This document shows, piece by piece, positions 10,477 to 47,690 of a stretch of 64,000 bases of DNA. The translations under genes were made by a program, and so were the position numbers. Position 1 is the stretch's first letter. Each line of letters begins with the position of its first letter. This stretch comes from Aerococcus sanguinicola (GTDB lineage Bacteria; Bacillota; Bacilli; Lactobacillales; Aerococcaceae). A model generated the notes under the pieces. That model was not told the origin of the DNA, did not search any database, and saw nothing but the letters and a program-made list of their open reading frames with translations. The stretch lies in assembly GCF_001543145.1 (NCBI RefSeq), contig NZ_CP014160.1:1488001-1552000 (forward strand), written 5' to 3'.

Positions 10477-11871
10477 ATGTCTAGGCAGAATGAGTCTTCG
10501 AAGGGACTAGTGTGGGGACTAGCTATCGCCCTTGTGGTTGTATTGGGACTATATGGTGGGGGAGCTTACTATTATACTCAGCATTTTCTTCCCCGTACTC
10601 AGGTCTCCGCTACGACGGTTTCAAATATGAGCTTAGAAGAAGCGGACCAAAAAGTTTCAGAAAAAATTGCGGGTCAAACTATTGATGTGAAAGAAGGGGA
10701 CAAGGAAGTTGCCCAACTGCCAATCGATAGTTTGGGACTGCCGATTGAAAGCCAAACCGCATTGAAAAAAATGCTCGATGAACAAAATCAATGGGCTTGG
10801 CCGCTCGCCTTCTTTACAGACCGTCAACTTCAAGGTAAGTATGTCGATGGAGACTTGGATGGGGCAACTATTGATAAGATTATGAACCAATTAGGGATTG
10901 ATAATTCCCAGCGTAAAGAATCCGAAAACGCTCGCTTGGAGAATTCTTCAGACCAAGGTTTCACAGTTGTTGACTCGGTCCAAGGGAATCAAATTTCAGC
11001 AGATGCCTTGCAAGATTTGTTCAATAAGAATATCGATAACGGCAACTACCAGGTTAACTTAGCGGATGCTTACATCCAACCAACCCTTAAGGAAGACGAT
11101 CCGAGCTTGCAATCTAAGATCAAAAAACTCGATGATATTAAGGGGTCAAAATTGGTCCTTAAAGGTGATGGTAAGGAACACCAGATTCCTGAAGAAGAAA
11201 TTGCTAGCTGGTTGTATATTGATGACCAAGGGGAGCCCGCTGTTGATATGGACCAGGTTAACGTCTATCTCCAAGGCTTAAACCAAGAAATTTCTGGTCT
11301 TTTAACTTCTCATGACTTCCAGTCCACCATGGCCGGTGTCGTGACAGTTCAGCCAGGGACTTACGGCTGGTATATCGACCGCTCCAAAGCAGCTGATGAA
11401 GTTGCCCAAGCAGCCTTAAAAGGTAAAGATACCGTCATCGAACCATCCATTGCTGGCTCCGGTTACGGGCAAGATAACTTCTTTGGTCAGGACTATGTGG
11501 AAGTCGATATGATTAACCAAAAGATGTTCATCTATCTCAATGGCGAATTGCAATTGAGCACGGATATCGTATCTGGTCACGATATGACCCCAACTAATCC
11601 AGGGGCTTTCGCAGTGAACAACATGCAGTCACCATCAGTCCTCCGCGGCTACGATCCAAAGACAGGTAACAAGTATGCCTCTCCTGTATCCTATTGGGTG
11701 CCCTTTGACTATGTCGGACAAGGCATCCACGACGCCAACTGGCAACCCGTCTTTGGCGGCGGTTGGTACCACCAAAACGGCTCAAACGGCTGCATCAACG
11801 TCCAACCCTCCGTCATGCCAACCGTCTACTCCCTCGTCCACGTCGGCATGCCAGTCGTCGTATTTAATTAA
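10477..11871 (+). CDS. Membrane-anchored L,D-transpeptidase (PG_binding_4 plus YkuD domains)
   Basis: The 464-residue protein would cross-link peptidoglycan by 3-3 bonds on the outer face of the membrane. One N-terminal helix (about 12-33) anchors it. A peptidoglycan-binding-4 type region follows, and the YkuD catalytic domain fills the last 125 residues with the cysteine in NGSNGCINV. Most YkuD enzymes have SHGC; here an asparagine replaces that histidine. The catalytic histidine candidate in GIHDANW is present. The ATG at 10477 follows GGAGGG and was preferred to an in-frame ATG at 10420. The last 50 codons are strikingly A/C-ending, and the stop codon directly abuts a family A repeat. Confidence 0.85.
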   Translation: MSRQNESSKGLVWGLAIALVVVLGLYGGGAYYYTQHFLPRTQVSATTVSNMSLEEADQKVSEKIAGQTIDVKEGDKEVAQLPIDSLGLPIESQTALKKMLDEQNQWAWPLAFFTDRQLQGKYVDGDLDGATIDKIMNQLGIDNSQRKESENARLENSSDQGFTVVDSVQGNQISADALQDLFNKNIDNGNYQVNLADAYIQPTLKEDDPSLQSKIKKLDDIKGSKLVLKGDGKEHQIPEEEIASWLYIDDQGEPAVDMDQVNVYLQGLNQEISGLLTSHDFQSTMAGVVTVQPGTYGWYIDRSKAADEVAQAALKGKDTVIEPSIAGSGYGQDNFFGQDYVEVDMINQKMFIYLNGELQLSTDIVSGHDMTPTNPGAFAVNNMQSPSVLRGYDPKTGNKYASPVSYWVPFDYVGQGIHDANWQPVFGGGWYHQNGSNGCINVQPSVMPTVYSLVHVGMPVVVFN

Positions 11872-12225
11872 GGGTGTGAAGGCTAGCGGGAGAAATAGAC
11901 CTCTGGAGCAAAGAGACAGAGAAGACTGCAAGTCTTCGACGTCTCTTTGTGAAGAGGAGCTATTTCTGCTAGCCTGAACCCGACTAAAAAGGGTGTGAGC
12001 GAAGACGGTTAGAAAGGAATGACTGGAGGCAAAAGGGATAAGAGCGGCTTTAGCCGGTCGTTCCCTTATGCTGAAGTCACTTCCTTTCTGTCTTTGCGAA
12101 CCCGACTAGGGTGTGAAAGCTAGTGGGAGAATAGCCCTCTTTGTGAAGAAGACCTATTTCTGCTAGCCTGAACCCAACTAGGCTGTGAGGGCTGGCGGTC
12201 AGCTCTTCTTCAAAGCCACAAGCTG
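11872..12225 (+). repeat. Family A structured repeat array (three units plus remnant)
   Basis: Unit 1 (11872-11986) folds end to end: GGGT pairs with ACCC, GGCTAGC with GCTAGCC, AGAAATAG with CTATTTCT, CTCT with AGAG, and CAAAG with CTTTG, closing on GAAGACT/AGTCTTC. Unit 2 (11991-12108) has unrelated stem sequence but the same feet and internal loop. Unit 3 (12109-12180) lacks the apical hairpin and has AACCCAACTA at the foot. A decayed fourth start runs from 12181. The array begins at the base after the upstream stop codon. Confidence 0.85.
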
Positions 12226-12252
12226 CTCATCAATCGGATACACTAAGAATCC

Positions 12253-12289
12253 ATTAAAGCCAACTCAAGGGGGTTGGCTTTTTTTAATG
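12253..12289 (+). terminator. Terminator after family A array
   Basis: AAAGCCAAC pairs with GTTGGCTTT around a short loop, followed by a run of T. It ends transcription from the L,D-transpeptidase gene through the repeat array. Confidence 0.8.
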
Positions 12290-12350
12290 GGATTTTTTGG
12301 TTATAATGGAAGCAGAATAAGCAAGTGAAGAAGTTACGAAGGAGGCCCTT

Positions 12351-13307
12351 ATGAAGATTAATTTACTTGAAAATTTAAGAGTTGATGACACTTATATCGA
12401 AGAACTCGCTCAAAAGCTGAAAGAAGCGGGGCATGACTTTACTTATTATAAAGACCGGACCACGGATCCAGATGAACTCCTCGCCCGTAGCCAGGATGCT
12501 GATATTGTCATTATCGGCAACACCCCTTATCCGGCAGAAGTGATTGAGCAATTAGACCAGACACAGTTGATTGATGTGGCCTTTACAGGGGTGGACCATG
12601 TCGACCAAGAGGCAGCAGCTAACAAGGGAATTGCCATTTGTAATGCGTCTGGCTATGCCAACCAGGCTGTTGCGGAATTGTCTCTTGGTCTTGCCTTATC
12701 GCTCTTCCGCCAGCTGCCAGCCAGTAACCAGGATGCCCGCAAAACGACTGATTTTCCAGGCCCTATCCAAGGACGGGAAATTAGCCAAGCGAAGGTAGGC
12801 ATTATTGGGACGGGGGCTATTGGTCTAGCAACGGCTAAGCTCTACCACGCTTTAGGGGCTGAGCTTATGGGCTATAATCGTTCAGAGAAGGAAGAAGCAA
12901 AGGCTTTGGGCATGCGCTATGCCAGCTTAGAGGAAGTCATGGCGGAATCCGATATTATTTCCATCCACCTGCCAGCTACTCCTGAAACAGAGGGCCTCAT
13001 CTCTAAAGAAATGATCGGTAAAATGAAGAAGGAGGCCACCCTGATCAATGTGGCAAGAGGACCGATCGTGGACAGCCAGGCACTGGCAGACGCGCTAAAT
13101 GAGGAAGCCATTGCCGGGGCAGGTATTGATGTTTTCGACCAAGAGCCACCACTTAATGAAGATGAGCCCTTGTTGTCAGCGAAGAATACCATCCTAACTC
13201 CGCATATCGGCTATCTGACCGATGAAGCCATGGTTCTCCGGGCGAACACCGCTTTTGAGAATGCCTTAGCCTTTGCGGAAGGACAGCCACAGAATTTAAT
13301 TAAATAA
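12351..13307 (+). CDS. D-isomer-specific 2-hydroxyacid dehydrogenase
   Basis: The 318-residue cytoplasmic NAD-dependent oxidoreductase would interconvert a 2-oxoacid and a D-2-hydroxyacid. The nucleotide-binding motif GIIGTGAIG sits near residue 147. The catalytic trio is visible as Arg in NVARGPIVD, Glu in DVFDQEPPL and His in LTPHIGYLT. The length is typical. AGGAGG lies a few bases before the ATG. It is monocistronic between two terminators. Substrate cannot be told from sequence; D-lactate, phosphoglycerate and hydroxyisocaproate enzymes all share these motifs. Confidence 0.85.
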   Translation: MKINLLENLRVDDTYIEELAQKLKEAGHDFTYYKDRTTDPDELLARSQDADIVIIGNTPYPAEVIEQLDQTQLIDVAFTGVDHVDQEAAANKGIAICNASGYANQAVAELSLGLALSLFRQLPASNQDARKTTDFPGPIQGREISQAKVGIIGTGAIGLATAKLYHALGAELMGYNRSEKEEAKALGMRYASLEEVMAESDIISIHLPATPETEGLISKEMIGKMKKEATLINVARGPIVDSQALADALNEEAIAGAGIDVFDQEPPLNEDEPLLSAKNTILTPHIGYLTDEAMVLRANTAFENALAFAEGQPQNLIK

Positions 13308-13323
13308 GAGAAAAGAATGCAAA

Positions 13324-13355
13324 AAAGAGGCTGGAGCTTTTATTCCAGCCTCTTT
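13324..13355. terminator. Bidirectional terminator between dehydrogenase and xpt
   Basis: AAAGAGGCTGGA pairs perfectly with TCCAGCCTCTTT, with A-runs on one side and TTTG on the other. It serves two convergent genes. Confidence 0.85.
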
Positions 13356-13382
13356 GTATTTATTTTCGTTAAAGAACCGAGA

Positions 13383-13964
13383 TTAATGCCCGTCATTAAA
13401 GCGAACTTGGTTGTTTTCAAGGGAAGCGATGCGGGCAGCAGAGTAAACTTCGTAGCCATGGTCTAGGATGCGTTGGCGACCATTTTGGAAAGATTTTTCG
13501 ATACAGATAGCGACACCGGCGACATCTGCTCCTGCTTGTTCAGCGATGGAGATCAAGCCCATGGCCGCTTCGCCGTTAGCAAGGAAGTCATCCACAACCA
13601 GGACCTTATCATCTGCATTGAGGAACTGTTTGGAAACAATAATATTGCTGTCCGTGTTTTTCGTATAACTATGGACTAATTCAGTATAGACTTCTTGGTT
13701 TTGTAGGGTAGAAGGTTCTTTTTTCTTAGCAAAGAGCATCGGTACATCAAACTTCTGTGCCACAAAGATAGCGGGTGCAATACCGGAGGCTTCGATGGTT
13801 AGGATCTTCGTGATGCCTGCGCTCTTGAAGTGTTGGTAGAAGTCATTGGCGATGCTGTACATGATGTGTGGGTCAATTTGATGGTTTAAGAAGGAATCAA
13901 CCTTCAAGACATTATTTGGAAAAACCTCGCCATCATCAATAATTCGTTGCTGTAAAATATTCAC
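13383..13964 (-). CDS. xpt: Xanthine phosphoribosyltransferase
   Basis: This purine-salvage enzyme converts xanthine and PRPP to XMP. The 193-residue protein aligns along its whole length with Bacillus Xpt, sharing VLKVDSFLNHQIDP, TIEASGIAPA and the PRPP-binding loop VLVVDDFLANGEA. The reading frame extends upstream, but a GTG at 13964 preceded by AGGGGAG eight bases away gives the family's normal length. In Bacillus xpt is followed by pbuX and controlled by a guanine riboswitch; here there is no pbuX, and I see no purine-riboswitch core in the upstream 120 bp. Confidence 0.92.
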   Translation of the reverse strand: MNILQQRIIDDGEVFPNNVLKVDSFLNHQIDPHIMYSIANDFYQHFKSAGITKILTIEASGIAPAIFVAQKFDVPMLFAKKKEPSTLQNQEVYTELVHSYTKNTDSNIIVSKQFLNADDKVLVVDDFLANGEAAMGLISIAEQAGADVAGVAICIEKSFQNGRQRILDHGYEVYSAARIASLENNQVRFNDGH

Positions 13965-14199
13965 TTTCAGAACTCCCCTCATAAATAATTTATTGAATCG
14001 ATTGCCTGTATGGACATTAAGTGTTACTCTATCATAGCACAAAGCCCCCCCAAAAAGGTAAAAAAATCGATCTTTTATCAAATTGTCGCAAATTTTTAGC
14101 GAATTCTCATGAAAATCAGACCTGGGTTAGATTGCAAAATATAGGGAATCGATTATAATTGTAAAGATCAGCAAGCTCATTTAGAAGGGAGGAGGACAA

Positions 14200-15399: not shown

Positions 15400-15908
15400 C
15401 CAACCATATTGTATTATACGAACCCCTGATTCCACCAAACACCGGCAATATTGCTCGGACCTGTGCTGCGACTGACACCCACCTGCATCTCATCGAACCC
15501 CTGGGCTTTTCCTTGGATGACAAGCACCTCAAGCGGGCGGGTCTGGATTATTGGCACAGTGTGGATGTGACCTTGCACAAGGATTTAGAGCATTTTATGG
15601 CTTATTTAGGAGACCGCAAGCTCTACTTAATCACTAAGTTTGCCCACCATACCTATACAGAGGTTGACTACCGCCAGCAAGCGGATGAGGACCTCTTCTT
15701 GATGTTTGGTAAGGAAACAACAGGCCTTCCTGAAGACTTCATGCGCGACCACGAGGCTCAATGTTTACGCCTGCCCATGGATGATACCCATGTTCGTGCT
15801 CTGAACCTGTCGAATTGTGCCGCCATTGTGATCTACGAAGTGCTCCGCCAGCAAGACTTCAACCAGCTGGAGAAGAGCCACCATTACGACCATGATAAGC
15901 TGGACTAG
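15396..15908 (+). CDS. trmL: tRNA (cytidine/uridine-34 2'-O)-methyltransferase
   Basis: The 170-residue SPOUT-fold protein methylates the ribose of wobble base 34 in certain leucine tRNAs. It begins with NHIVLYEPLIPPNTGNIART, the family signature, and has the knotted SAM site LMFGKETTGLPEDF and LPMDDTHVRALNLSNCAAI near the C-terminus. The length is typical of TrmL. The start overlaps queG's stop codon. The pairing of queG with trmL is common in Firmicutes. The downstream intergenic stretch of about 120 bp has no clear terminator. Confidence 0.92.
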   Translation: MTNHIVLYEPLIPPNTGNIARTCAATDTHLHLIEPLGFSLDDKHLKRAGLDYWHSVDVTLHKDLEHFMAYLGDRKLYLITKFAHHTYTEVDYRQQADEDLFLMFGKETTGLPEDFMRDHEAQCLRLPMDDTHVRALNLSNCAAIVIYEVLRQQDFNQLEKSHHYDHDKLD

Positions 15909-16026
15909 GAGGATAAGTTTCGTTTAAGTTCCCCAGCAGAAATTGCAATTCCAAGCCCAACATGGGAAAATAGGAGAGTGGTTTAATCCGCCTTAGTTCA
16001 ATAGAAGAGAGAGTAGGAGATTATTT

Positions 16027-18168: not shown

Positions 18169-18199
18169 GCCAATGAAGACAAGTAAAGGAGGAAATGGA

Positions 18200-18568: not shown

Positions 18569-18604
18569 GAATTAAGGCAAATATTTTTCTTATTAAATCG
18601 TGCT

Positions 18605-18783
18605 GGTGAGCATCCGTTGCGCTTTTGAATTTGATCGTTAAAGAGCCATGGCACCGGCTCGAGCCAAGGTCTCTCGCCTAGCGAGACTTAAACGGACCGT
18701 ACGGCTAAAGCCTAGGTTCCGTAATTCGCTACGCTTGCTTGTTCATGGCTAACGATCAAATTCAAAGCTCCACTTTTGCTCAA
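18605..18783 (+). repeat. Family B fold-back (MITE-like) element
   Basis: The ends are TGAGCATCCGTTGCGC and the inverted TTTTGCTCA. Just inside, TTGAATTTGATCGTTA is exactly complementary to TAACGATCAAATTCAA, a 16-bp terminal inverted repeat. CCATGGCACCGG and TCGCCTAGCGAG form the interior. The element codes for nothing. At least nine relatives lie elsewhere in the window. Confidence 0.8.
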
Positions 18784-18855
18784 AATTAGCTGATATATAA
18801 ATTATGTCTTAGTTAATTTCTAATCATCAATATTAGAAGTAGAGAATTAGAAAGT

Positions 18856-18896
18856 GTCCCCATAGCTCGGCAGGAGCTTGTGGGGGCATTTTTTTG
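18856..18896 (+). terminator. Terminator after family B element
   Basis: GTCCCCATAGCTC pairs with GAGCTTGTGGGGGC and is followed by seven T residues. It probably ends the PBP-YheA transcript. Confidence 0.8.
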
Positions 18897-24141: not shown

Positions 24142-24320
24142 ATGAGCATTCGTTCCGCTTTTGAATTTGATCGCTGAAGAGCCATGGCACCGGCTCGAGC
24201 CAAGGTCTCTCACCTAGCGAGCTTCAAACGGCTAGTAACGGCTTACGCCGACTATCCGTAATTCACATCGCTTGCTTGTTCATGGCTAACGTTCAAATTC
24301 AAAGCTCCACTTCTGCTCAT
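24142..24320 (+). repeat. Family B fold-back element
   Basis: Same layout as the copy at 18605: TGAGCATTCGTTCCGC start, TTTGAATTTGATCG and its inverted partner CGTTCAAATTCAAAG, and CTTCTGCTCAT end. The interior ends CCGTAATTCACATCGCTTGCTTG. This interior gives the uninterrupted reference for sites where family A lies inside B. Confidence 0.8.
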
Positions 24321-24344
24321 AAACATGTTCATCAGTATATTTTA

Positions 24345-25170: not shown

Positions 25171-26319
25171 ATGGGAGAATTTACAAAACGTCAACAACAA
25201 CCCTATCGCTTTGACACAGTGGGAAGCTTTTTACGCCCAGCTCGATTAAAAGAAGCACGCAAGGCTTATGAAGCAGGCGAAATTGATGCCCAGGCTTTAC
25301 GCCAGGTTGAAGATGAAGAAATTATCAAATTGATTCAAAAACAAGAAGAAGCAGGCTTACAAGCTGTTTCCGACGGTGAATTCCGTCGCAGCTGGTGGCA
25401 CTACGACTTCATGTGGGGCTTAAATGGGATTGAAAAGCGCTTCATCGATGAAGGTGGCCAGTTCCACGATATGAAGACTCGGGCAGAAACTGCTTCCTTA
25501 ACAAGCCGTGAATTAGATGGTCATAAGCATCCTTTTGTGGAAGATTTTAAATTCGTCCGCGACCATAAGTCGGCCGACCGTGAAGTGAAGCAAACAGTTC
25601 CAGCACCTGCTCAATTGTTACAAGAGTTACTCAAACCACACAACCAAGAGACTACCCAAGCTTTCTATGGAGAAGATGAACACCGCGAATTAGCCCAAGC
25701 CATCGCTAAGGCTTATATCGATGTCCTAGAAGATTTCGCAGCTGAAGGCGCTAAAGTGATCCAGTTCGATGACTGTACCTGGGGACGTTTGGTGGACATC
25801 CACCTCGAAGACTATCCAGAAGACGAACGTCAGGCTAAGGCTGATGAAAAAGCCTACTTAGCAGGCCTCTACCGCTATGTCAATAACCTGGCAATCGACG
25901 GGGCACCTGAAGGCCTAACCATCACTAGCCACGTTTGCCGGGGCAACTACCGGTCACACTGGTTTGGCCAAGGTGGCTATGACTCCGTAGCAGACGAACT
26001 ATTCGCTAAGGAACACGCCCAAGCCTATTACCTGGAATACGACTCAGACCGCGCTGGTGGCTTTGAACCCCTAGCTAAGGTGGGCGATGACCGCTTAGTC
26101 GTCCTCGGCCTAATCACCTCGAAGACAGGGGAATTAGAAGACCGGGAAGCGGTCATCAAACGCATCCACGAAGCAGCCAAATATATTCCATTAGACAACC
26201 TCTGCCTCAGCCCCCAATGCGGCTTCTCCTCAACTGAAGAAGGCAACAGCCTAACAGAAGACCAACAATGGGAAAAACTAGCCCTCGTCCGCTCCATCGC
26301 AGAAGAAGTCTGGGGATAA
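25171..26319 (+). CDS. MetE C-terminal-like methyltransferase (YxjG/YxjH family)
   Basis: The 382-residue protein corresponds to the catalytic C-terminal half of cobalamin-independent methionine synthase. Zinc ligands are visible: His and Cys in TSHVCRGNY, Glu in YYLEYDSDRAG and Cys in LSPQCGFSST. Bacillus YxjG and YxjH share this form and may methylate homocysteine with an alternative donor. An ATGGAGGAT ribosome binding site precedes the ATG. The final 50 or so codons are almost all A- or C-ending, and a family A array starts three bases after the stop codon. Confidence 0.83.
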   Translation: MGEFTKRQQQPYRFDTVGSFLRPARLKEARKAYEAGEIDAQALRQVEDEEIIKLIQKQEEAGLQAVSDGEFRRSWWHYDFMWGLNGIEKRFIDEGGQFHDMKTRAETASLTSRELDGHKHPFVEDFKFVRDHKSADREVKQTVPAPAQLLQELLKPHNQETTQAFYGEDEHRELAQAIAKAYIDVLEDFAAEGAKVIQFDDCTWGRLVDIHLEDYPEDERQAKADEKAYLAGLYRYVNNLAIDGAPEGLTITSHVCRGNYRSHWFGQGGYDSVADELFAKEHAQAYYLEYDSDRAGGFEPLAKVGDDRLVVLGLITSKTGELEDREAVIKRIHEAAKYIPLDNLCLSPQCGFSSTEEGNSLTEDQQWEKLALVRSIAEEVWG

Positions 26320-26322: not shown

Positions 26323-26710
26323 GGGTGTGAGCAGTTGCGTACAGACTTGAATGACTGGAGCCCAAACGGAAAAGAGCGGCTCTAGCCGATCGTTCCGATT
26401 GGGTGAAGTCACTTCAAGTCTGCAACTGCGAACCCGACTAGAAAAGGATGTGAGGGCTGGCGCTTAGCTTTCCTTCACTGGAGCAAGTCGCCAGAGCAGC
26501 TTGAGACTGCTGCGGAGACTTGTGAAGTGACAGGAAAGCTGCCAGATCGAACCCGACTAGACAGGGTGTGAGGGAGCGCGTGTAGGAGTGGACCTCTGGA
26601 GCAAAGCAACAGAGAAGACTAAAAGTCTTCGGCGGCGCTTTGTGAAGAGGAGCCACTTCTGCGCGACCGAACCCGACTAGGAAGGGTGAGAGCAAGAGCT
26701 CAGAATACAT
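26323..26710 (+). repeat. Family A structured repeat array (three units plus truncated fourth)
   Basis: Unit 1 (26323-26440) has CAGACTTGAA/TTCAAGTCTG and GCAGTTGC/GCAACTGC stems. Unit 2 (26446-26559) has AGCTTTCCT/AGGAAAGCT and an apical AGCAG/CTGCT. Unit 3 (26564-26679) has CCTCT/AGAGG and GAAGACT/AGTCTTC. All three keep TGGAG opposite GTGAAG and end GAACCCGACTA. A bare GGGTGAGAGC foot at 26683 leads into the terminator. Confidence 0.85.
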
Positions 26711-26789: not shown

Positions 26790-27045
26790 ATGAGCAAGTT
26801 GTGAATAGAGGGATCGTTTGAGACTTCCTGATCTTCTACTCGCGAACGGAGCTGCCATTAGCAAGTTGCCCTTGTCCTAGTTGCAAACGGGGCCATCATT
26901 CAAAAGTTGACACTGGTCAACTCGCAAACGGATCCATCATTTGCAAGTTGCTGATGTTCTAGTCGCAAACAGGACCATCATTAGCAAGTTGCCAATACCC
27001 TAGTCGCTAATACTGGCGCTGTTAGCGACTTGCCAAGGCATTATG
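26790..27045. repeat. Family C degenerate tandem repeats
   Basis: About five imperfect units of roughly 41-43 bp follow the pattern CCATCATTAGCAAGTTGCC...CTAGTCGCAAACGG. Alternating TTAGCAAGTTG and CGCAAACGGG boxes are conserved and the rest drifts. It contains no coding region and directly follows the family A array and its terminator. Confidence 0.7.
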
Positions 27046-32137: not shown

Positions 32138-32313
32138 AGAGCATTCGTTCCGCTTTTGAATTTGATCGTTAAAGAGCCATGGCACCGGTTCGGGCCAAGG
32201 TCCCTCACCTAGCGAGCTTCAAAGGGCTAGTAAGGCTAAAGCCAACTATCCCTAATTCACATCGCTTGCTTGTTCATGGCTAACGATCAAATTCAAAGCT
32301 TCACTACTGCTCA
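32138..32313 (+). repeat. Family B fold-back element
   Basis: It starts GAGAGCATTCGTTCCGC and ends CTACTGCTCA, with TTTGAATTTGATCGTTA and TAACGATCAAATTCAAA as inner inverted repeats. The interior includes CACCGGTTCGGGCCAAGGTCC. It separates ccrZ and trmB, which are adjacent in related genomes. Confidence 0.8.
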
Positions 32314-32510
32314 AAATTAGCTGATAAAGAAAATATCCCTTAATTAATAACTAGTCACCAACACTAAAAGTAGGGAATTAATAGAAGCAGGCAGGTTCTT
32401 TTAGAGTGCTTGGCCCGCTTTTATTTTTGCTATAAGACTAGTCTTTTGGACCTGCTTGGATAGATTTTGAAAGTAGACTAAGGATTGAAAGCGAAATAAG
32501 GAGGCGCATG

Positions 32511-33279: not shown

Positions 33280-33389
33280 CTGTTCCAAAAGTCAGGCCTG
33301 ACATCCACTTCACAAAGTCTGATGATCGTTTGTAACGATCTTCAGGCTTTGTTCCAGTGATTCAGGTCTGAAGGACTTTTGTCACGCTC
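33280..33389 (-). repeat. Family A variant unit with alternative feet (A3 type)
   Basis: On the minus strand it reads GAGCGTGACAAAAGTCC ... CACTGGAACAAAG ... CTTTGTGAAGTGG ... GACTTTTGGAACAG. The CTGGA/TGTGAAG internal loop of family A is kept, but the feet are GACAAAAGTC and GACTTTTG instead of GGGTGTGA and GAACCC. The apex is GATCGTT/AACGATC. A second copy of this type lies at 62759. Confidence 0.75.
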
Positions 33390-36887: not shown

Positions 36888-37784
36888 GTGAAAAAGATTA
36901 GAAAAGCTGTTATTCCAGTGGCTGGTTTAGGGACCCGTTTTCTCCCCGCAACTAAGTCTATGGCCAAGGAAATTATTCCCGTTATGGATAAGCCAGCCGT
37001 CCAATTTGTCGTTGAAGAAGCCCTAGCAGCTGGCATTGAAGAAATTCTTGTGATTACCGGTCGTCACAAACGCTCGGTGGAAGATCATTTCGATGCCAAT
37101 ATTGAACTGGAAGAGAATTTGGAAGCCAAGGGCAAGGATGAACTCCTAGCTATGGTCCAAGATTCTACACTCGAGAATATCCAATTCAAACGCCAGCACT
37201 ATCCTAAGGGCCTGGGCGACGCGGTTGCCCTAGCTGAATCCTTTGTGGGGGAAGAACCCTTCCTCTTGATGCTGAGCGATAATATTTTGGTGAGCGAAGA
37301 ACCAGCTTCTCAAGCCTTGATGGCAGCCTACAACAAGACCGGCAAGAGTTCTGTCTTAGTCCAAGAAATTGACGAAGAATTGACCCAACTTTATGGCATC
37401 CTAGACCCTGACCAAGAAGCTGAAGATGGCATCTTACCCGCACGTAATGTGGTCGAAAAACCTCAGGACCAAGCCCCCAGCCAGTACGCCATCTGTGGCC
37501 GCTATGTCTTAGACCAAAGCATCTTCCGCGCCCTAGAAGGCCAAGAAGTCAATCCCTTATCAGGCGAAATCGAACTCAGTGATGCCCTCAGCCAAATCGC
37601 CCAAGACCAGGGCGTCAATGGTCTTGTTTTTACCGGTGAATGGTACGAAGTCGGCGAACCCCTAGGCATGGTCAAAGCCAGCATCCAATACGCCCTCCGC
37701 CACAAACAAACCGGCCCCGAATTCAAAGACTACCTCAAAAACGAAATAATCCCTAAACTAAAGGGTGAGAGGGAGCGCGGGTAG
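36888..37784 (+). CDS. galU: UTP--glucose-1-phosphate uridylyltransferase with repeat-derived C-terminus
   Basis: The 298-residue enzyme makes UDP-glucose for glycolipids and wall polymers. It begins KAVIPVAGLGTRFLPATKS, the nucleotide-binding signature, and has LMLSDNILVSEEP and GEIELSDALSQI as family landmarks. A GTG at 36888 follows AAAGGAG. The natural end appears to be NEIIPKLK; the next codons GERERG and the TAG come from a family A repeat that begins at 37763, so the repeat supplies the stop codon. The last 35 codons are almost all A/C-ending. Confidence 0.92.
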   Translation: MKKIRKAVIPVAGLGTRFLPATKSMAKEIIPVMDKPAVQFVVEEALAAGIEEILVITGRHKRSVEDHFDANIELEENLEAKGKDELLAMVQDSTLENIQFKRQHYPKGLGDAVALAESFVGEEPFLLMLSDNILVSEEPASQALMAAYNKTGKSSVLVQEIDEELTQLYGILDPDQEAEDGILPARNVVEKPQDQAPSQYAICGRYVLDQSIFRALEGQEVNPLSGEIELSDALSQIAQDQGVNGLVFTGEWYEVGEPLGMVKASIQYALRHKQTGPEFKDYLKNEIIPKLKGERERG

Positions 37785-37878
37785 AAGTGGATCTCTGGAG
37801 CAAAAGATCGAAGAAGTCTGAAAGACTTCGGCGGAATTTTGTGAAGAGAAGCCACTTCTGCGCGACCGAACCCGACTA
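37763..37878 (+). repeat. Family A structured repeat (single unit overlapping the galU 3' end)
   Basis: GGGTGAGAG starts the unit. AGAAGTGG pairs with CCACTTCT, and AGAAGTCT with AGACTTC near the apex. TGGAG lies opposite GTGAAG and the foot is GACCGAACCCGACTA. The first 22 bases are read as galU codons. A bare GGGTGAGAGC foot follows at 37882. Confidence 0.85.
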
Positions 37879-38060: not shown

Positions 38061-38073
38061 AAATCCCAGAATA

Positions 38074-38116: not shown

Positions 38117-38128
38117 TTACTTGATATT

Positions 38129-38668
38129 TTAGAAACCCTTATTATGTTTCAAATATTCTTCTTCTTCGGGTGTGTTTTCCCGGCCTAGTGTCTCATTGCG
38201 GTAAGGGTAGCGGCCGTATTTTTCAATGATTTCATAGTGGGCTTTTTCATACTTTAGATTGTTGGCTAGGGCTTCTTCTGAGGAGAAGAGTTCCATGGCT
38301 TGGTCGTGGATGACGAGGGATTCGGAGTGCATGAAGGGCATGTAGATGAAACTGCGAGCTTCTGGACTGAGCGAAGAGAGGTCTTCCAGCCGGATGCATT
38401 CTTGGGCCAGGGCGAGCGCCATATCGTCTTGGGCATAAGCTTGGCCACTCCCCCGATAGAGATTTCTGGAAAATTGGTCCAGGACAATAATTTCTGCCAA
38501 GCGTCCGCGCAGGCTTTCCCGCCAATCCGCATGTTCACCGTCTTTGACTTCCTGGTGGAGCTGGCTAAAGCGGTCGGCAATGGCTTGGTCTACGCTTTCA
38601 CCACCATTAAACCACTGCTCCGGACCCAATTCTTCAAACCAAAAATTTAAAACTGCTTCGATTGACAT
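38129..38668 (-). CDS. DUF924 family protein
   Basis: The 179-residue helical protein shows DUF924 landmarks: VLNFWFEELGPEQWF at the N-terminus, IIVLDQFSRNLYRGS near residue 60, FIYMPFMHSES, and HYEIIEKYGRYPYRNETLGR toward the end. The family adopts a TPR-like helical fold and has no established biochemical role. AAAGGAGG precedes the ATG. It is a single gene between a terminator and the divergent nucleoid-associated gene. Confidence 0.88.
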   Translation of the reverse strand: MSIEAVLNFWFEELGPEQWFNGGESVDQAIADRFSQLHQEVKDGEHADWRESLRGRLAEIIVLDQFSRNLYRGSGQAYAQDDMALALAQECIRLEDLSSLSPEARSFIYMPFMHSESLVIHDQAMELFSSEEALANNLKYEKAHYEIIEKYGRYPYRNETLGRENTPEEEEYLKHNKGF

Positions 38669-39812: not shown

Positions 39813-39833
39813 AGTAGAAGAGGAAAAACAAAA

Positions 39834-40388
39834 ATGAAAATACCCAAATTAGACCTGGACCTGGTCCGCTATCCAAACTTCCAGCAGCTCTCATTAACCC
39901 GTCGTTTGACCAATCTGAGCCTCTGGGTAGCAGTTGCCGTGGTGGGACGGGTCTTAGTCAGTGGCCTGCCTAATGTCCAACCTGTGACGGATATGGTCAT
40001 CCTAGCTGTGCCACTCTTTGGCCTGTCAGGGGGCTTAATTGTCGCCACCCTCATCATGCTTCTCAGCAACCTCATCCTCGGTATGGGACCTTGGACCCTG
40101 GGGCAGATCCTAGCCTATGGGGCGGTCGTCTTGATCAGCTACCTCTTAATGAAGCTAGGCCTCTTCAAATACCCCCTAGCCGTCCTCGCCTGGTCCCTAG
40201 TCGCAGGCTACTGTTACGGCCTCATTGTCAGCTACATGATGCTCATCCTCTTCGGCCTAGGCATGCCCTTCTGGACCTACTACCTAGCCGGCCTCCCTTA
40301 CGACACCGGCCACGCCCTAGGCAACCTCGCCTTCATGCTTATCCTAGTCCCCATCTGCCAACGCCTCATCCGCGAAAAAATATTGTAA
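39834..40388 (+). CDS. ECF transporter S component
   Basis: The 184-residue membrane protein has about six hydrophobic segments and the substrate-binding-subunit pattern of energy-coupling-factor transporters, including LPNVQPVTDMVIL, GPWTLGQILAYG and YYLAGLPYDTGHALGNLAF. S components bind a vitamin or precursor and use a shared EcfAAT module encoded elsewhere. The ligand is not clear; the sequence resembles HmpT- or CblT-like subunits. From about codon 100 the codons are nearly all A/C-ending, and a family A array starts three bases after the stop. Confidence 0.8.
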   Translation: MKIPKLDLDLVRYPNFQQLSLTRRLTNLSLWVAVAVVGRVLVSGLPNVQPVTDMVILAVPLFGLSGGLIVATLIMLLSNLILGMGPWTLGQILAYGAVVLISYLLMKLGLFKYPLAVLAWSLVAGYCYGLIVSYMMLILFGLGMPFWTYYLAGLPYDTGHALGNLAFMLILVPICQRLIREKIL

Positions 40389-40391
40389 AAA

Positions 40392-40770
40392 GGGTGTGAA
40401 GGTTAGCGGGAGAAATAGACCTCTGGAGCAAAAAGCCAGAGAAGACTGAAGGTCTTCGGCGGATTTTTGTGAAGAGGAGCTATTTCTGCTAACCTGAACC
40501 CGACTAAAAAAGGGTGTGAGGGCTGGCGGTTAGGCTTGGATGATTGGAGCAAGTCAGAATAAGAGCAAAATATTCGCTCGTTTCTGACTTGTGAAATCAC
40601 TCCAAAGCTGCTCTTGCGAACCCGACTAAGAAAGGGTGAGAGGGAGCGCGGTTAGAAGTGGACCTCTGGAGCAAAGCAACAGAGAAGACTGCAAGGCTTC
40701 GGCGGCGCTTTGTGAAGAGGAGCCACTTCTGCGCGACCGAACCCGACTAAAAAAGGATGTGAAGGTTGGC
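40392..40770 (+). repeat. Family A structured repeat array (three units plus remnant)
   Basis: Unit 1 (40392-40506) pairs GGTTAGC with GCTAACC and AGAAATAG with CTATTTCT. Unit 2 (40512-40628) has an unrelated stem, AAGTCAGAA/TTCTGACTT, and apex GAGC/GCTC. Unit 3 (40634-40749) pairs AGAAGTGG with CCACTTCT. All end in GAACCCGACTA. A fourth foot, GGATGTGAAGGTTGGC, starts at about 40755 and is cut short. Confidence 0.85.
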
Positions 40771-40794
40771 ATATAATTCTAACTGCCTAACGCA

Positions 40795-41065
40795 TTACCT
40801 AATTGCATTCGGAGGGCCCGAATGCAAATATCAGGCGGCCAATCTTCACTCAGAGAGCCCGAATACAGATAGCAAGTGTCCAATTTGCACTCGGAGGCCC
40901 TGAATGCAGATAGCAAGTAATCAATTTGCACTCAGAAGGCTCGAGTACAGATAGCGGATGCTCAATTTGCATTCGGAGGGCTCGAGTACAGATAGCAAGT
41001 GTTCAATCTACACTCGGAAGGTCCGAATGCAGATAGCAAGCATCAATCTGACGCGATGCCCCTGT
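40795..41065. repeat. Family C degenerate tandem repeats
   Basis: About five units of roughly 50-55 bp follow the pattern TTTGCACTCGGAGG, then a box ending GAATGCAGATAGCAAGT, then a variable CAA-rich link. GAATGCAGATAGCAAG recurs with single changes. It has no coding capacity and adjoins the family A array on its 3' side. Confidence 0.75.
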
Positions 41066-41181
41066 ATGCCAATAGAAAACATACTTTTTCGACCAACAGG
41101 CAAATAGCGAGCCTAATCAAATCAATTTTCAAGAAACACCTACCATTATTTTAAGCTCACACAACAATTAAGGAGGATTCA

Positions 41182-42987: not shown

Positions 42988-42996
42988 GAGAAAATT

Positions 42997-44292: not shown

Positions 44293-44850
44293 ATGGATAA
44301 AGTAAAGATTGAACAAGCAATTCGTGACTTATTAATCGGGATTGGGGAAGACCCCGACCGGGAAGGTTTGCAGGAAACGCCGAAACGGGTGGCTAAGATG
44401 TATGCTGAACTCTTGGATGGTTACCAAAGAACCCCCGCCCAACACATGGAAAAGCAATTCACGGCTGAAGACAGTGAACTAGTCTTAGTCAAGGATATTC
44501 CCTTCCATTCTATGTGTGAGCACCACCTCTTGCCCTTCTACGGGGTTGGCCATATTGCCTATGTACCCGGAGCAGACAAGGTAGTTGGCTTAAGCAAACT
44601 GGCGCGAATCTTAGAGGATATCAGCCTCCGTCTCCAATTACAGGAACAGATCACGACAGAAGTGGCGCATACGATTGCTGATAATCTCGAAGTGGAAGGG
44701 GTCTTCGTTGTACTTGAAGCAGAGCACATGTGCATGTCCATCCGTGGCGTCCACAAAGAAGGGGCTTCTACCGTCACCAAATCTGCTCTCGGTTGCTTTA
44801 AGGAAAACTCTGAACTGCGTAAAGAAGTCCTATCGATGATTCGAGCTTAG
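44293..44850 (+). CDS. folE: GTP cyclohydrolase I
   Basis: The 185-residue enzyme converts GTP to dihydroneopterin triphosphate, the first step of folate synthesis. Zinc ligands are in SMCEHHLLPFYG (Cys and His) and in AEHMCMSIRGV (second Cys). The length is typical for type I. The ATG follows the folC stop with no gap and only a distant AGGA, so translation is probably coupled to folC. Confidence 0.95.
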   Translation: MDKVKIEQAIRDLLIGIGEDPDREGLQETPKRVAKMYAELLDGYQRTPAQHMEKQFTAEDSELVLVKDIPFHSMCEHHLLPFYGVGHIAYVPGADKVVGLSKLARILEDISLRLQLQEQITTEVAHTIADNLEVEGVFVVLEAEHMCMSIRGVHKEGASTVTKSALGCFKENSELRKEVLSMIRA

Positions 44851-44861
44851 GAGTGGGGCTT

Positions 44862-45230
44862 GTGAAAAAAGATTGCATTTATTTAAATGGTTTAAATTTC
44901 TATGCCTACCACGGTCTCTTTCCTGAAGAGACCAAACTTGGCCAGCGTTTCATCGTTGACCTGGCTCTCTACTTGGATCTGAGCCGGGCCGGTCAGACGG
45001 ACCAAATGACTGATAGTGCCCACTATGGCGAGGTCTATGACAGTGTCAAGCGTGTTGTCGAAGGGGAGCCCTTCAAGCTGATTGAACGTCTGGCCCAAGC
45101 CATTGCCGATGAGGTCCTGGCTAGCCAAGCTTTAGTGGACGCCTTGCAGGTCAAGGTCACCAAGCCCGATCCACCGATTCCGGGCCACTACGATTCAGTC
45201 GCTGTTGAGATTTACCGTGAACGTCATTAG
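44862..45230 (+). CDS. folB: Dihydroneopterin aldolase
   Basis: The 122-residue protein shows the FolB signature LNGLNFYAYHGLFPEET at its start, with the catalytic region VTKPDPPIPGHYDSVAVEIYR at its end. It cleaves dihydroneopterin to 6-hydroxymethyl-dihydropterin. The start is taken as GTG 44862, eight bases after AGGAG; the GTG at 44853 overlaps that ribosome binding site and was rejected. It lies between folE and folK in the operon. Confidence 0.92.
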   Translation: MKKDCIYLNGLNFYAYHGLFPEETKLGQRFIVDLALYLDLSRAGQTDQMTDSAHYGEVYDSVKRVVEGEPFKLIERLAQAIADEVLASQALVDALQVKVTKPDPPIPGHYDSVAVEIYRERH

Positions 45231-45244
45231 GAAGGAGAGCAGAT

Positions 45245-45748
45245 ATGCCAGTTGAAACCCACCATGCCTATATTGCCCTGGGGTCTAACATTGAGCCGCG
45301 CCGGGAGTTTTTGAACCGGGCGATTAAGGCTTTGGACCGGAATGAATCCACCTCTGTTGTCCAAAAGTCCCACATCTATGAAACGGTACCCAAGGGCTAT
45401 GCCGACCAAGCAGACTTCTTGAATATGGTTCTCGAAGTCGAAACCACCTGCGATCCCTTCGCCTTATTAGGGATTGCCCAGCAGATTGAAGATGATCTCA
45501 ACCGGGTGCGGACGATTAAGAACGGGCCACGAACTATTGACGTGGACCTGCTTGCTTATGAAGACCAAATTATTGACCATGAAATTTTAGAATTGCCCCA
45601 TCCTCGCATTCAAGAGCGCGCCTTTGTCCTCTTCCCCATGGCAGAGATTGCAGCGGACTTTGTCTTACCTGGTACGGGTCAGACCATCCAAGCCCTGCGT
45701 GATGCCCTGCCTGAAGCTGAAAAGGCGGATGTCCGGATTTACGAATAG
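45245..45748 (+). CDS. folK: HPPK, 6-hydroxymethyl-dihydropterin pyrophosphokinase
   Basis: The 167-residue kinase activates the pterin for joining to p-aminobenzoate. It begins AYIALGSNIEPRREFLNRAI, the HPPK hallmark, and has the metal and ATP motif RTIDVDLLAYEDQ followed by LPHPRIQERAFVLFPM. AAGGAGAG precedes the ATG. It is the last gene of the folate operon, and a terminator follows immediately. Confidence 0.95.
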   Translation: MPVETHHAYIALGSNIEPRREFLNRAIKALDRNESTSVVQKSHIYETVPKGYADQADFLNMVLEVETTCDPFALLGIAQQIEDDLNRVRTIKNGPRTIDVDLLAYEDQIIDHEILELPHPRIQERAFVLFPMAEIAADFVLPGTGQTIQALRDALPEAEKADVRIYE

Positions 45749-45752
45749 CGTG

Positions 45753-45782
45753 ATGCCCAGCGACGAGATGTCCTGGGCTTTT
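45753..45782 (+). terminator. Terminator of the folate operon
   Basis: GCCCAG pairs with CTGGGC around an 11-base loop, followed by TTTTCTTCT. It starts a few bases after folK. Confidence 0.75.
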
Positions 45783-45800
45783 CTTCTAAAATTGGGCGAA

Positions 45801-45862
45801 TGAGCATGCCTTCCGCTTTTGAATTTGATTGTTAAATTTTGAAAGGATCAATATCGTCTGGA
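45801..45862 (+). repeat. Truncated family B element
   Basis: TGAGCATGCCTTCCGCTTTTG and AATTTGATTGTTAAAT match the left end of family B. The copy stops after about 60 bases and lacks the right inverted repeat. Confidence 0.65.
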
Positions 45863-46015
45863 AAAAAGTCTTAGCTATGTTTTAGATATGCGACTTTTGA
45901 CAAGGCTCTCTTTCTAGATTTTCTTGAAGGCTTATACTTTGGTATTTCAATGATTTTATGCTATTGTAAACATAAATCTAGCAAGTTAATTAAAGAGAGA
46001 AAAGAGTGATTCAAA

Positions 46016-46513
46016 ATGGCTGAAGAAATCAAGCAAGAAAATGATTTAAATTTTGATGCGCAAGCGATTGAAACAATTGCGAGCCGTGCCGTTCTAGAAG
46101 TCGATGGGGTCCTAACTACTCAAGGGAACGCCTTCAATACGGCCTTGTCCCAAGCCGCTAACTTCGCTGACCAAGTTAAAGAAAAAACTCAAGAAAGCTT
46201 CTCTGATGACGACCAAGGGGATAAGCAAGAAGGTCAAGATCAAGAAGAAGACAAGGGACATGAAGAAGGGGACCACTACCAAGACGGCGTGAACGCTGAA
46301 GTTGGTAATGTGGAAGTTGCCGTGGACCTCGATATTGTCGTGGCTTATGGTAAGGAAATTCCTAAGATCTTCGATGAAATTGTTGAAAATGTCAGCAAAC
46401 GTATCCATGAAGCAACGGGTTTAGAAGTTGTGGAAGTGAATGTCAATGTTCGCGATATCATGACGGAAGAAGACTATCGCAAGGTTCACTACAAACAATT
46501 TCCTGATGACTAA
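46016..46513 (+). CDS. Asp23/Gls24 family protein with acidic insert
   Basis: The 165-residue cytoplasmic stress-envelope protein has the Asp23 pattern in two halves: IASRAVLEVDGVLTTQGN and VAVDLDIVVAYGKEIPKIFDEIVENVSKRI with GLEVVEVNVNVRDI. Between them (about 62-88) lies a D/E/Q/G-rich stretch not seen in the second paralogue at 56777. Asp23 is known to gather at the membrane through AmaP. This copy stands alone with its own terminator, outside the amaP operon, so its anchor is unclear. Confidence 0.85.
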   Translation: MAEEIKQENDLNFDAQAIETIASRAVLEVDGVLTTQGNAFNTALSQAANFADQVKEKTQESFSDDDQGDKQEGQDQEEDKGHEEGDHYQDGVNAEVGNVEVAVDLDIVVAYGKEIPKIFDEIVENVSKRIHEATGLEVVEVNVNVRDIMTEEDYRKVHYKQFPDD

Positions 46514-46531
46514 TTAGCATGCAATTGAACA

Positions 46532-46577
46532 AATTCCCTAGAGATCCAGGCGTGTGGATAGCTAGGGAGTTTTTTGT
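46532..46577 (+). terminator. Terminator of the first asp23-like gene
   Basis: TTCCCTAG pairs with CTAGGGAG around an 18-base loop, followed by TTTTTTG. Confidence 0.8.
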
Positions 46578-46589
46578 TTGGCTACTTTT

Positions 46590-46830
46590 TATTGAAGCTT
46601 CCATTTGAAAGTTGGCCTGGTTCTACTTGCTAATGGGGACTCCATTTGAAAGTTGGCCCGGTTCTACTTTCTAACGGAGCCCTCATTTGAAAGTTGGCCC
46701 GGTTCTACTTGCTAATGGAGCCTTCGTTTGAAAGTTGACCTGATCCTACTTGCTAATGGGGACTCCATTTGAGAGTTGGCTTGATCCTACTTGTTAACGG
46801 AGCCTCCGTTTGAAACTTGCTCCAGATCTA
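46590..46830. repeat. Family C tandem repeats (about 44 bp period)
   Basis: Five units repeat CCATTTGAAAGTTGGCC...TTCTACTTGCTAATGGGGACT with small changes. This is the cleanest family C array. Its right edge runs into a truncated family A foot, where GCTCCAGA (TCTGGAGC on the other strand) is the family A internal-loop motif. Confidence 0.8.
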
Positions 46831-46852
46831 AGAATCTTGCTCTCACCCTCCC

Positions 46853-47090
46853 TAGTCGGGTTCGGTCGTGCAGAAGTGGCTCCTCTTCACCAAAAGCCGC
46901 CGAAGACTTTCAGTCTTCTCTGGCTTTTGGCTCCAGAGGCCTATTTCTCCCGCTAGCTTTCACACCCTCCTTAGTCGGGTTCGCAAAGGCAGAAAGGAAG
47001 TGACTTCAGCGAAAGGGAACGACCGGCTAGAGCCGCTCTTATCCCTTTCGCCTCCAGTCATTCCTTTCTGAACGCCTTTGCTCTCACCCT
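46853..47090 (-). repeat. Family A structured repeat array in reverse orientation (two units)
   Basis: The first unit in its own orientation (47090 down to 46972) is of the AGCGGCT-apex type with AGAAAGGAA/TTCCTTTCT stems. The second (46967 to 46853) has a mismatched outer stem: 5' arm GCTAGCGGGAGAAATAG but 3' arm CCACTTCTGCACGACC, as if two subtypes had recombined. A cut-short foot (GGGTGAGAGC) runs on to about 46837. Confidence 0.85.
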
Positions 47091-47159
47091 CCCTTTTTTT
47101 GTGTTTCTTTTGTGGATTTGATAGAATGAGTAGAGATAATTAGGAAGTGAGGGTGTGTT

Positions 47160-47690
47160 ATGGTGGCTTATAATAATGATGATGGTTTGTCTTTTGGCAA
47201 GCCTCTGCATGCGATTGATGTGGGGGATACGTTTACCATGACGGAGCGTTTTCGGGAGCGGGATATTCTCCTCTACATGGGGGTAACGAATGATATTAAT
47301 CCCCGCTATTTGAAGACGGAGGAGGCCCACCAGGTGGTTGATCTGGAGACGGTGATTCCTCCGATTGCCTTGATGGGGGCGATTACGCGGACGGTTTCTA
47401 TGCATTTCCCGGGGCCGGGGTCCATGTTGGTAGAGATGAATTTCACGATTAATAAGGCTATCCGCCACGATTCGACCATTACCTATCATTTTGAAGTGAT
47501 CCGGATCGAGGAATGGCGGGGTTACGTGACCATCCATGTCATCGGCAATAATGAAACCACCGGGGAGGACCGGGTCCTGGATGCCATGCTGATGGTTCTT
47601 CCGCCCGAAGAAGCCCTGACTGACCAACCCAAAATTATTGATTCGAGTGAATTGAAGCGTGTCGATGGAGGCGATGTAAACAGTGACTAA
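47160..47690 (+). CDS. MaoC-like hot-dog fold protein
   Basis: The 176-residue protein looks like an (R)-hydratase/MaoC-type hot-dog domain, with the motif GVTNDINPRY resembling the hydratase catalytic D...N...P/H box and the central LMGAITRTVSMHFPGPG. The C-terminal 40 residues are not part of the fold. Substrate is unknown. It overlaps polA by eight bases. The first 30 or so codons end almost only in G or T, the mirror image of the A/C skew seen next to family A on the other strand; a reverse-oriented family A array lies 70 bp upstream. Confidence 0.65.
   Translation: MVAYNNDDGLSFGKPLHAIDVGDTFTMTERFRERDILLYMGVTNDINPRYLKTEEAHQVVDLETVIPPIALMGAITRTVSMHFPGPGSMLVEMNFTINKAIRHDSTITYHFEVIRIEEWRGYVTIHVIGNNETTGEDRVLDAMLMVLPPEEALTDQPKIIDSSELKRVDGGDVNSD

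Follow-up and report, generated by a model that had tools for sequence, protein, structure and literature searches.

Among the described systems that resemble the repeats considered here, REP and BIME elements are repeated palindromes of enterobacteria with an associated Y1 (RAYT-type) transposase. Synonymous codons are known to be adapted locally to mRNA structure, for example by weak structure at gene starts, and the deamination of single-stranded DNA is known to be strand-asymmetric. Ribosome stalling has been reported for E. coli REPs located within 15 nt of a stop codon (PMC12306157), and the termination factor Rho is described as binding unstructured C-rich, G-poor RNA of at least 70–80 nt (PMC6407284).

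Like REP and BIME elements, the family A repeats of the studied Aerococcus genome are intergenic, palindromic, multicopy, often clustered and concentrated just behind stop codons, so that the description "repeated palindromes outside genes near stop codons" applies to them. In total, 268 unit matches were found in 801 kb (39% of the chromosome), in stretches chosen non-randomly around arrays from the best 150 scored unit matches and exact foot-to-foot joins; genes were called there by codon log-odds and not by curated annotation. Among the arrays behind gene ends, 76 of 96 start no more than 20 bp from the stop codon. Unlike REP and BIME elements, the hairpin-forming units are about 115 nt long, contain conserved internal loops and occur singly or in head-to-tail arrays, the codons beside them are skewed, and this genome yielded no Y1 transposase. 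A Y1_Tnp search gave no match in this genome (G000) or in that of its sister species (G001) and gave matches in 5 of 15 genomes of the genus, and mobilisation of the IS200/RAYT type was dropped for this reason. In 228 of 230 units the RNA of the array strand folds better than that of its complement, a G.U pair is retained on the array strand in all 12 units of the window (the whole analysed stretch of 64,000 nucleotides), and changes on both sides with pairing kept were found in 24 of 33 pairs. Rfam models at the gathering score gave 17 matches in the window, all of them rRNA or tRNA, and no known RNA family for the units. The unit ends in GAACCCGACTA and has no T run, so it is not the GC-rich hairpin with an immediate T run of an intrinsic terminator. 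Terminator-like sites lie within 160 bp past the array in 37% of 89 end-side arrays versus 32% of 239 array-less ends.

The codon skew beside family A arrays is real, strong and genome-wide. In genes running into the arrays, G and T are shunned on the repeat's strand at silent codon positions: 78–86% of silent third positions are A or C within 150 bp of the array 5' edge, compared with 54% far off, and the excess declines with distance and has faded by 600–1000 bp. It is confined to the 5' side; no A/C rise was seen on the 3' side in the same 801 kb. Gene ends within about 20 bp of an array of the strict set (13 of 124 clusters, having no near-complete unit, were left out) show a mean A/C of 0.812 (n = 64) versus 0.572 at 239 array-less transcript ends, where both end and start classes exclude genes shorter than about 130–150 codons or too near the end of a stretch. 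This difference of 0.240 lies beyond all 20,000 permutations, the largest of which gave 0.080. Values of 0.75 or more are seen in 72% of the 67 ends that have an array on the same strand no further than 120 bp away; the share is 17% among 72 array-less ends with a terminator, 8% among 167 other ends and 0.6% among 162 operon-internal ends. The skew grows with the number of units, from 0.723 for one (16 genes) through 0.809 for two (24) and 0.843 for three (18) to 0.864 for four (5) and 0.822 for five (2) (rho 0.37, p 0.002). At four-fold sites 50–100 bp from the array C makes up 0.67 and G 0.04; purines at such sites decrease from 0.37 to 0.22 toward the array, G falling most. At 150–250 bp A is favoured equally with C relative to the baseline, and the order of preference at the flank is A and C, then T, then G.

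The skew was also found in the reversed arrangement. Genes starting beside the array 5' edge and reading away from it contain 0.639 G/T in their first 50 codons (n = 16) versus 0.483 at 474 array-less starts; none of 20,000 permutations was as high, and 9 of the 16 starts reach 0.65. Starts behind the array 3' side give 0.488 (n = 16). The G/T excess beside antisense arrays means that the skew belongs to the strand of the repeat and not to the direction of the gene. Replication strand was rejected as a cause, since array-adjacent ends have A/C of 0.80 on the leading strand (39 genes) and 0.83 on the lagging strand (25); the starts comprise 14 leading and only 2 lagging genes.

Some skew occurs apart from the arrays. 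Array-less lagging-strand ends are raised as well (0.678 in 57 genes, their own upstream parts 0.595), and array-less ends before an intrinsic terminator are raised mildly (0.604 versus 0.527 at operon-internal ends). Noncoding spacers on the array 5' side respond weakly, both at gene starts (0.58 A/C, n = 17, versus about 0.52 in 242 controls) and at gene ends (0.507, n = 7, versus 0.478). The test on the first position of Leu codons and on positions 1 and 2 was mixed (p 0.053), and none of the k-mers listed as enriched in the flanks was complementary to the foot of the unit. The repeats of family B show a weaker effect of the same kind in 43 genes, divided into seven orientation groups with small numbers.

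In the window, the five gene ends named in the initial annotation are skewed as described. The L,D-transpeptidase-like gene, with A/C of 0.91 in its last 50 codons (11722..11871, plus strand), precedes an array of three unit matches, the last partial (11872..12180, plus), and a presumed MetE-like gene, with 0.94 in its last 50 codons (26170..26319, plus), precedes three units at 26323..26679 (plus). A presumed ECF S gene (40239..40388, plus, 0.93) is followed by three units at 40392..40749 (plus). A minus-strand gene (last 50 codons 33404..33553, minus, 0.80) ends beside a divergent variant unit (33283..33385, minus) that covers only profile positions 5–108. For galU the skew was confirmed (0.83) and the position of its end was corrected: 37762 is the unit's foot, and the frame runs to 37784 (last 50 codons 37635..37784, plus), inside a single unit at 37763..37878 (plus). 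The gene at 47160 runs opposite to the array, as had been stated; its first 50 codons (47160..47312, plus) are 0.83 G/T, that is, A/C 0.17 on the gene strand and the complementary A/C excess on the strand of the two-unit array (46853..47089, minus). This antisense array is separated from the upstream gene by a terminator-like hairpin and further repeats. The strand rule has an exception in the gene starting at 50900 on the plus strand, which shows A/C of 0.60 and no G/T skew beside the two-unit minus-strand array at 50594..50829. A minus-strand gene ending at 63247, 215 bp from the unit at 62916..63031 (minus), has A/C of 0.78 in its last 50 codons. The gene at 58179–60116, presumably thrS, had been cited as showing partly similar codons with no unit nearby; its A/C is 0.65 over the whole gene, and 0.56 and 0.64 over the first and the last 50 codons, so its pattern is a different one.

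Comparison with the sister species reveals how the flanks evolve. Crossing substitutions in the flank occur at 0.63 times the rate of the genes' own upstream codons (controls 0.86). Loss of A/C is suppressed both by transition (0.60 [0.46–0.80]) and by transversion (0.34 [0.16–0.52]), A/C gain by transition is raised (1.37 [1.06–1.79]), and A<->C changes are unsuppressed (1.25 [0.66–2.23]); 118 control genes give 0.87 for transition loss, 0.96 for transversion loss and 1.00 for A<->C. In these tests a gene was counted as array-bearing when either sister has the array, and pairs with an array in one sister only were kept in. Of 12 such pairs listed, three correspond to runs of N in G001, one to sequence of G000 outside the stretches analysed and three to variant units. 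At gene starts the constraint test covers a small set of six gene pairs with 30 crossing changes. As loss of A/C is suppressed with transversions included and A<->C changes are spared, these substitution patterns suggest that selection, or a fixation bias acting like it, upholds the skew, which would then be no scar left by mutation.

Across the genus the skew is strong in the sister pair, moderate in G014 and weak in G012, which has units (8 genes, 0.55–0.58 versus 0.50) and no start effect in four genes. The sister species shows the same effect at ends (21 genes) and a weak one at starts (8 genes, 0.43–0.48 A/C versus 0.51–0.52). Loss of Rho was rejected as a predictor of skew strength, given the weak skew in Rho-less G012 and the moderate one in Rho-bearing G014. 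The expectation that orthologues without the repeat would be unskewed was borne out in part. In G004, a species without units, none of 265 gene ends reaches 0.75, but sites between the sisters where an array was lost remain skewed. Two arrays present in G000 only are located at ends unskewed in both sisters, at 519617 (0.47/0.42) and 323472 (0.55/0.61).

What was observed is the association, its strand rule and one-sidedness, and a constraint that keeps A/C from being lost by transition or transversion. In our opinion, they may be explained by a selection-like fixation bias on silent sites that keeps the array strand unpaired just 5' of the hairpins, a tentative reading to which we give somewhat less than an even chance. 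Family A units are structured elements with the array strand as the folding strand and, single or tandem, lie mostly directly behind a stop codon; according to this reading, 5' of an established array A and C would be taken on the array strand wherever the protein permits, because pairing is possible for G and T(U) but not between A and C. The selected property would be an unpaired stretch leading into the hairpins, and array-sense RNA, while being transcribed, is its most likely site: the part upstream of the array is made before the array folds, the part downstream only later. Such RNA might serve in transcript-end formation, in protection or in the stopping of antisense transcripts. The stronger disfavour of G than of T follows pairing capacity and argues for this reading, as do the strand rule and the one-sidedness, the suppressed A/C loss, the better folding of the array strand with its retained G.U pair, the increase of skew with unit number and the mild rise at array-less ends before an intrinsic terminator. 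Folding is predicted to be weaker in the last 50 codons (-31.5 kcal/mol) than further up in these genes (-39.4), and the corresponding controls give -38.9 and -39.7. Synonymous permutation gave no structure avoidance beyond composition (z -0.31, controls -0.61), and such additional avoidance was dropped from consideration. At the RNA level, antisense arrays beside gene starts are difficult to account for, since the array-sense RNA would have to come from a source other than the annotated genes. The weak spacer response, the equally skewed array-less ends (27 of 380), the weak skew in G012, the weak start effect in G001 and the mixed Leu test were also counted against the unpaired stretch. A more far-reaching and rather improbable idea is that in this Rho-less Aerococcus lineage structured arrays in tandem, together with a leader poor in G and U, act as a novel factor-dependent signal in RNA by which array-direction transcripts are ended or capped, with the neighbours' silent sites re-coded over hundreds of bases to serve it; if so, it would act in sense at gene ends and in antisense at gene starts.

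Strand-biased gene conversion, in which array-provoked recombination would use one strand as donor at the 5' edge and unequal mismatch repair would favour A and C, is unlikely. It would need particular mismatch-repair preferences. Biased conversion imitates selection, so the constraint pattern does not separate the two, and a DNA process would suit both the reach of several hundred bases and the lack of dependence on gene direction. However, the response of noncoding spacers, on which no codon constraint acts, would then be expected to match or exceed that of codons, and it does not.

It is more doubtful that the element simply lands beside sequence already A/C-rich on its own strand, the skew having another cause. 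Among the 27 equally skewed array-less ends, 26 are transcript ends, and at 502228 the sister has no trace of an array and is skewed all the same (0.86), as an insertion preference would predict. The unskewed ends at 519617 and 323472 and the absence of skewed ends from unit-less G004 stand against it, and preference alone leaves the constraint against A/C loss unexplained.

The initial annotation favoured a mutational cause next to the array, such as strand-specific deamination or a cDNA step, which now appears very improbable. The strand specificity, the grading with distance, the steep fall of G and the raised transition gain would suit it. Nevertheless, with forward mutation one expects the flank to collect more substitutions and A/C to be lost at an unchanged rate, and the opposite was found; neither deamination nor a cDNA step is therefore supported. 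Deamination producing transitions only is largely refuted by composition, in view of the purine decrease at four-fold sites, and by divergence, and the spacers respond weakly. Reverse transcription (cDNA, DGR- or retron-like) was rejected because RVT_1 was not found in six unit-bearing genomes (G002, G005, G009, G010, G012 and G013), though it is present in G000, G001, G006, G008 and G014.

Translational codon choice near array-proximal stops, for example easing ribosome stalling at the hairpin, is at least as improbable, and the earlier doubt about codon selection holds. The effect does sit at third positions, the arrays begin close to stop codons, and E. coli REPs so placed are reported to stall ribosomes (PMC12306157). 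But the codons are reversed, to G/T, at starts beside antisense arrays, and two ribosomal-protein genes, on which alone expression-type codons were rejected, favour T and A at four-fold sites where the flanks favour C. The flanks resemble the RNA bound by Rho (PMC6407284), yet rut sites, C-rich and G-poor RNA ahead of a termination zone, are hardly conceivable here, as A is favoured as much as C and Rho itself is refuted, its RNA-binding domain, found in 12 of 15 genus genomes, being absent from G000, G001 and G012 and a full-length Rho query giving no match in G000 and G001.

If the association is as described, synonymous codon choice in many neighbouring genes would be shaped by a repeat family, on the strand of the repeat and whatever the direction of the gene, and the 64 array-adjacent ends were measured in only 39% of the genome. 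Local codon bias of this type is otherwise ascribed to expression, horizontal transfer or mutation, and no counterpart linked to repeats was found in the literature searched. Species of the genus differ both in arrays and in Rho, so the cause is directly testable there.

Summarizing the likeness to known systems, the family A flank, as in rut sites, gives G-poor, C-rich RNA that is predicted to be weakly folded and lies ahead of an end signal; unlike them, it is mostly coding, graded over several hundred bases and favoured in A too, in a genome where Rho is missing. With strand-asymmetric deamination it shares a strand-specific, distance-graded composition, but A/C loss is suppressed with transversions included, and the raised substitution by transitions only of a deaminated flank is not seen. 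Local codon adaptation to mRNA structure would likewise rest on weak selection for reduced pairing at synonymous sites, whereas the family A skew is tied to a repeat, extends over hundreds of bases and follows the repeat strand even where this is the non-coding one.

Genes ending 5' of a family A array (hairpin-forming units, single or in tandem) and lying on its strand are rich in A and C at degenerate third codon positions. As means over arrays, read on the array strand, the A/C share is 0.78 at 0–50 bp, 0.86 at 50–100 bp, 0.79 at 100–150 bp and 0.71 at 150–200 bp, and then 0.67 (200–300 bp), 0.63 (300–400 bp), 0.60 (400–600 bp) and 0.57 (600–1000 bp), with a baseline of 0.54 at 2000–4000 bp. 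Four-fold sites at 50–100 bp contain C 0.67, A 0.17, T 0.12 and G 0.04 (called genes overall: C 0.41, A 0.14, T 0.23, G 0.23). The same profile gave no A/C rise on the 3' side. One exception to this one-sidedness is the gene 38129–38668 (−), facing the 3' side of the array 37763–37878, whose final 100 codons show A/C shares of 0.78 and 0.70.

Mean A/C was 0.812 at 64 array-adjacent gene ends vs. 0.572 at 239 array-free transcript ends. Among 527 gene ends compared by class, A/C of at least 0.75 was found in 72% of 67 genes with a same-strand array within 120 bp, 17% of 72 with a terminator and no array, 8% of 167 others without an array, 0.6% of 162 operon-internal genes, 4% of 28 with an opposite-strand array within 300 bp, 14% of 29 with an array 120–500 bp away and one of two with a foot remnant. 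Array-free ends reached this value in 27 of 380 cases (e.g., G000:C1:480470–481804, 850365–851558 and 1605082–1606194); 26 of the 27 are transcript ends, 18 are on the lagging strand and many precede ordinary terminator hairpins. The likely origin and terminus of replication are near 930 kb and 1.9 Mb of this chromosome, where both GC skew and gene direction switch. Genes beside family B repeats (18608–18849, 24144–24332, 32139–32380 and 60187–60428; no longer than about 240 nt and ending in inverted repeats) have a similar, weaker skew, in small numbers.

The initial annotation claimed that the skew follows the strand of the repeat and not gene direction, and gene starts bear this out, with exceptions. 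In 16 genes that start up to 260 bp from the 5' edge of a strict array (one with a near-complete unit), the first 50 codons have a G/T share of 0.639; it is 0.483 in 474 array-free genes and, for 16 genes behind the 3' side, 0.488. For leading-strand genes alone, A/C is 0.355 (n = 14) vs. 0.495 (n = 340; p = 2.6e-5), and by hand calculation the log-odds change at 150–250 bp is roughly equal for both gene orientations. Exceptions are 7 of the 16 starts, which stay below 0.65 G/T, and the window gene at 50900, which has no G/T skew despite its array; the effect is weak in eight genes of the sister species (G001).

This sister is close to A. sanguinicola (weighted mean identity 89.5% across 83 aligned blocks of at least 500 bases, many of the longest at 91–97%; GalU 98% identical vs. 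49–59% in 13 other genus genomes). In one scan of named genomes, the closest named record was Aerococcus sp. HMSC062A02, with an L,D-transpeptidase-like protein 99% identical. Of 195 aligned orthologue pairs, 33 have an end array in either or both species, 29 of them with enough upstream sequence; 118 genes served as controls. Relative to upstream codons of the same genes, the last 51 codons show A/C↔G/T substitutions at 0.63 [0.49–0.80] in flanks and 0.86 [0.77–0.96] in controls. A/C loss is 0.47 (controls 0.81) and gain 1.21 [0.91–1.58] (controls 0.93). At four-fold sites, loss is 0.60 by transition and 0.34 by transversion (controls 0.87 and 0.96), gain 1.37 and 0.78 (0.98 and 1.08), and A↔C 1.25 with a wide interval, 0.66–2.23 (1.00). 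The symmetrised counts presuppose near-equilibrium.

A deamination-like cause, proposed earlier, is not supported, since A/C loss is suppressed, transversions included. The sole reverse-transcriptase domain found in the genome lies at G000:C1:1141638–1142252 (−), within a 587-aa open frame. A mutator beside the array would lift gain and leave loss untouched, but loss is lowered; after a past mutational pulse loss would be normal; and a lower local mutation rate would also depress A↔C. What remains, therefore, is a fixation bias, arising either from selection or from biased conversion, which mimics it.

The two sisters differ in arrays at five sites that involve neither assembly gaps nor variant units. 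A/C in the last 50 codons (A. sanguinicola/sister) is 0.80/0.82 at 477290 (array/foot only), 0.82/0.86 at 502228 (array/no trace), 0.89/0.78 at 320002 (remnant/array), and 0.47/0.42 at 519617 and 0.55/0.61 at 323472 (both array/none). So, in these small numbers, skew can exist without an array and an array without skew; the former sites may reflect array loss and the latter recent gain. In the last three 17-codon blocks of array-adjacent genes, A/C is 0.75, 0.84 and 0.76 in the sister (21 genes), 0.67, 0.68 and 0.60 in G014 (13 genes; other genes 0.48–0.57) and 0.58, 0.55 and 0.57 in G012 (eight genes; others 0.46–0.50). In G004, which has no units, none of 265 gene ends reaches 0.75.

In our opinion, the explanation tentatively to be favoured, at somewhat under even chances, is selection that keeps array-sense RNA unpaired where it leads into the array, because the order of preference at silent sites (A,C > T > G) follows pairing capacity, the skewed side is transcribed ahead of the hairpin, and the skewed strand is the one on which the array folds. 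Its weak points are the antisense cases, the weak response of noncoding 5'-side DNA (A/C about +0.06), flanks with no structure signal beyond composition, the array-free skewed ends and the weak skew in G012. Strand-biased gene conversion fits the substitution-derived bias as well as selection does, and we consider it the less likely of the two. Translational codon preference does not fit: two ribosomal-protein genes adjoining an L2 match, presumably L4 and L23, favour T (0.43) and A (0.31) over C (0.18) and G (0.08) at four-fold sites, vs. C in flanks. Nor does an intrinsic-terminator link, terminator-like sites following 37% of 89 arrays behind gene ends and a similar 32% of 239 other ends. 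Rho itself is dismissed as a cause, being missing from both sisters. Rho was also not found in G012 (three of 15 genus genomes in all), where a full-length query gave a single weak, partial match (E = 8.9e-4).

The genome is a single contig of 2,033,849 bases, with the window at G000:C1:1488001–1552000. A profile search of 801 kb of it (60 joined stretches) gave 268 unit matches in 124 clusters, 111 of them strict; joined feet occur 92 times genome-wide (reversed control, 0). Strict arrays lie between converging genes (46), 3' of one gene and 5' of the next on the same strand (43), antisense between co-directional genes (19) or between diverging genes (3). In a wider set, 96 of 123 arrays follow a gene end on their 5' side; 76 of the 96 begin no more than 20 bp from the stop codon, most of them at 5 bp or less. 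The stop is TGA in nine of the 76, and in several of the nine this TGA belongs to the foot of the unit itself. Tandem arrays of a 40–41-bp repeat lie at 26795–27040, 40803–41081, 46541–46827 and 57595–57834, three of them close to family A arrays, on their 3' side.

The unit (about 114–118 nt; 5' foot GGGTGTGAG, 3' foot GAACCCGACTA) folds into a single long stem interrupted by asymmetric internal loops, which are conserved (eight units, z −4.6 to −9.4). Across 12 units of the window, standard pairs fill 94.7% of pair cells (shuffles, 72%), 24 of 33 stem pairs have changes on both sides, and one G·U pair is invariant in all 12. Folding is stronger for the array strand than for its complement in 228 of 230 units under RNA parameters and in 60 of 60 under DNA parameters, so the array strand is likely the functional one. 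Covariance-model matches occur in 11 of 15 genus genomes and are absent from G003, G004, G007 and G011. An Rfam search returned no matching family, and a limited survey of open-licence papers gave no account of the repeat or of repeat-linked synonymous skew. The internal loops contain opposed GA steps (e.g., in 11872–12180), which to us resemble kink-turn or sheared G·A motifs.
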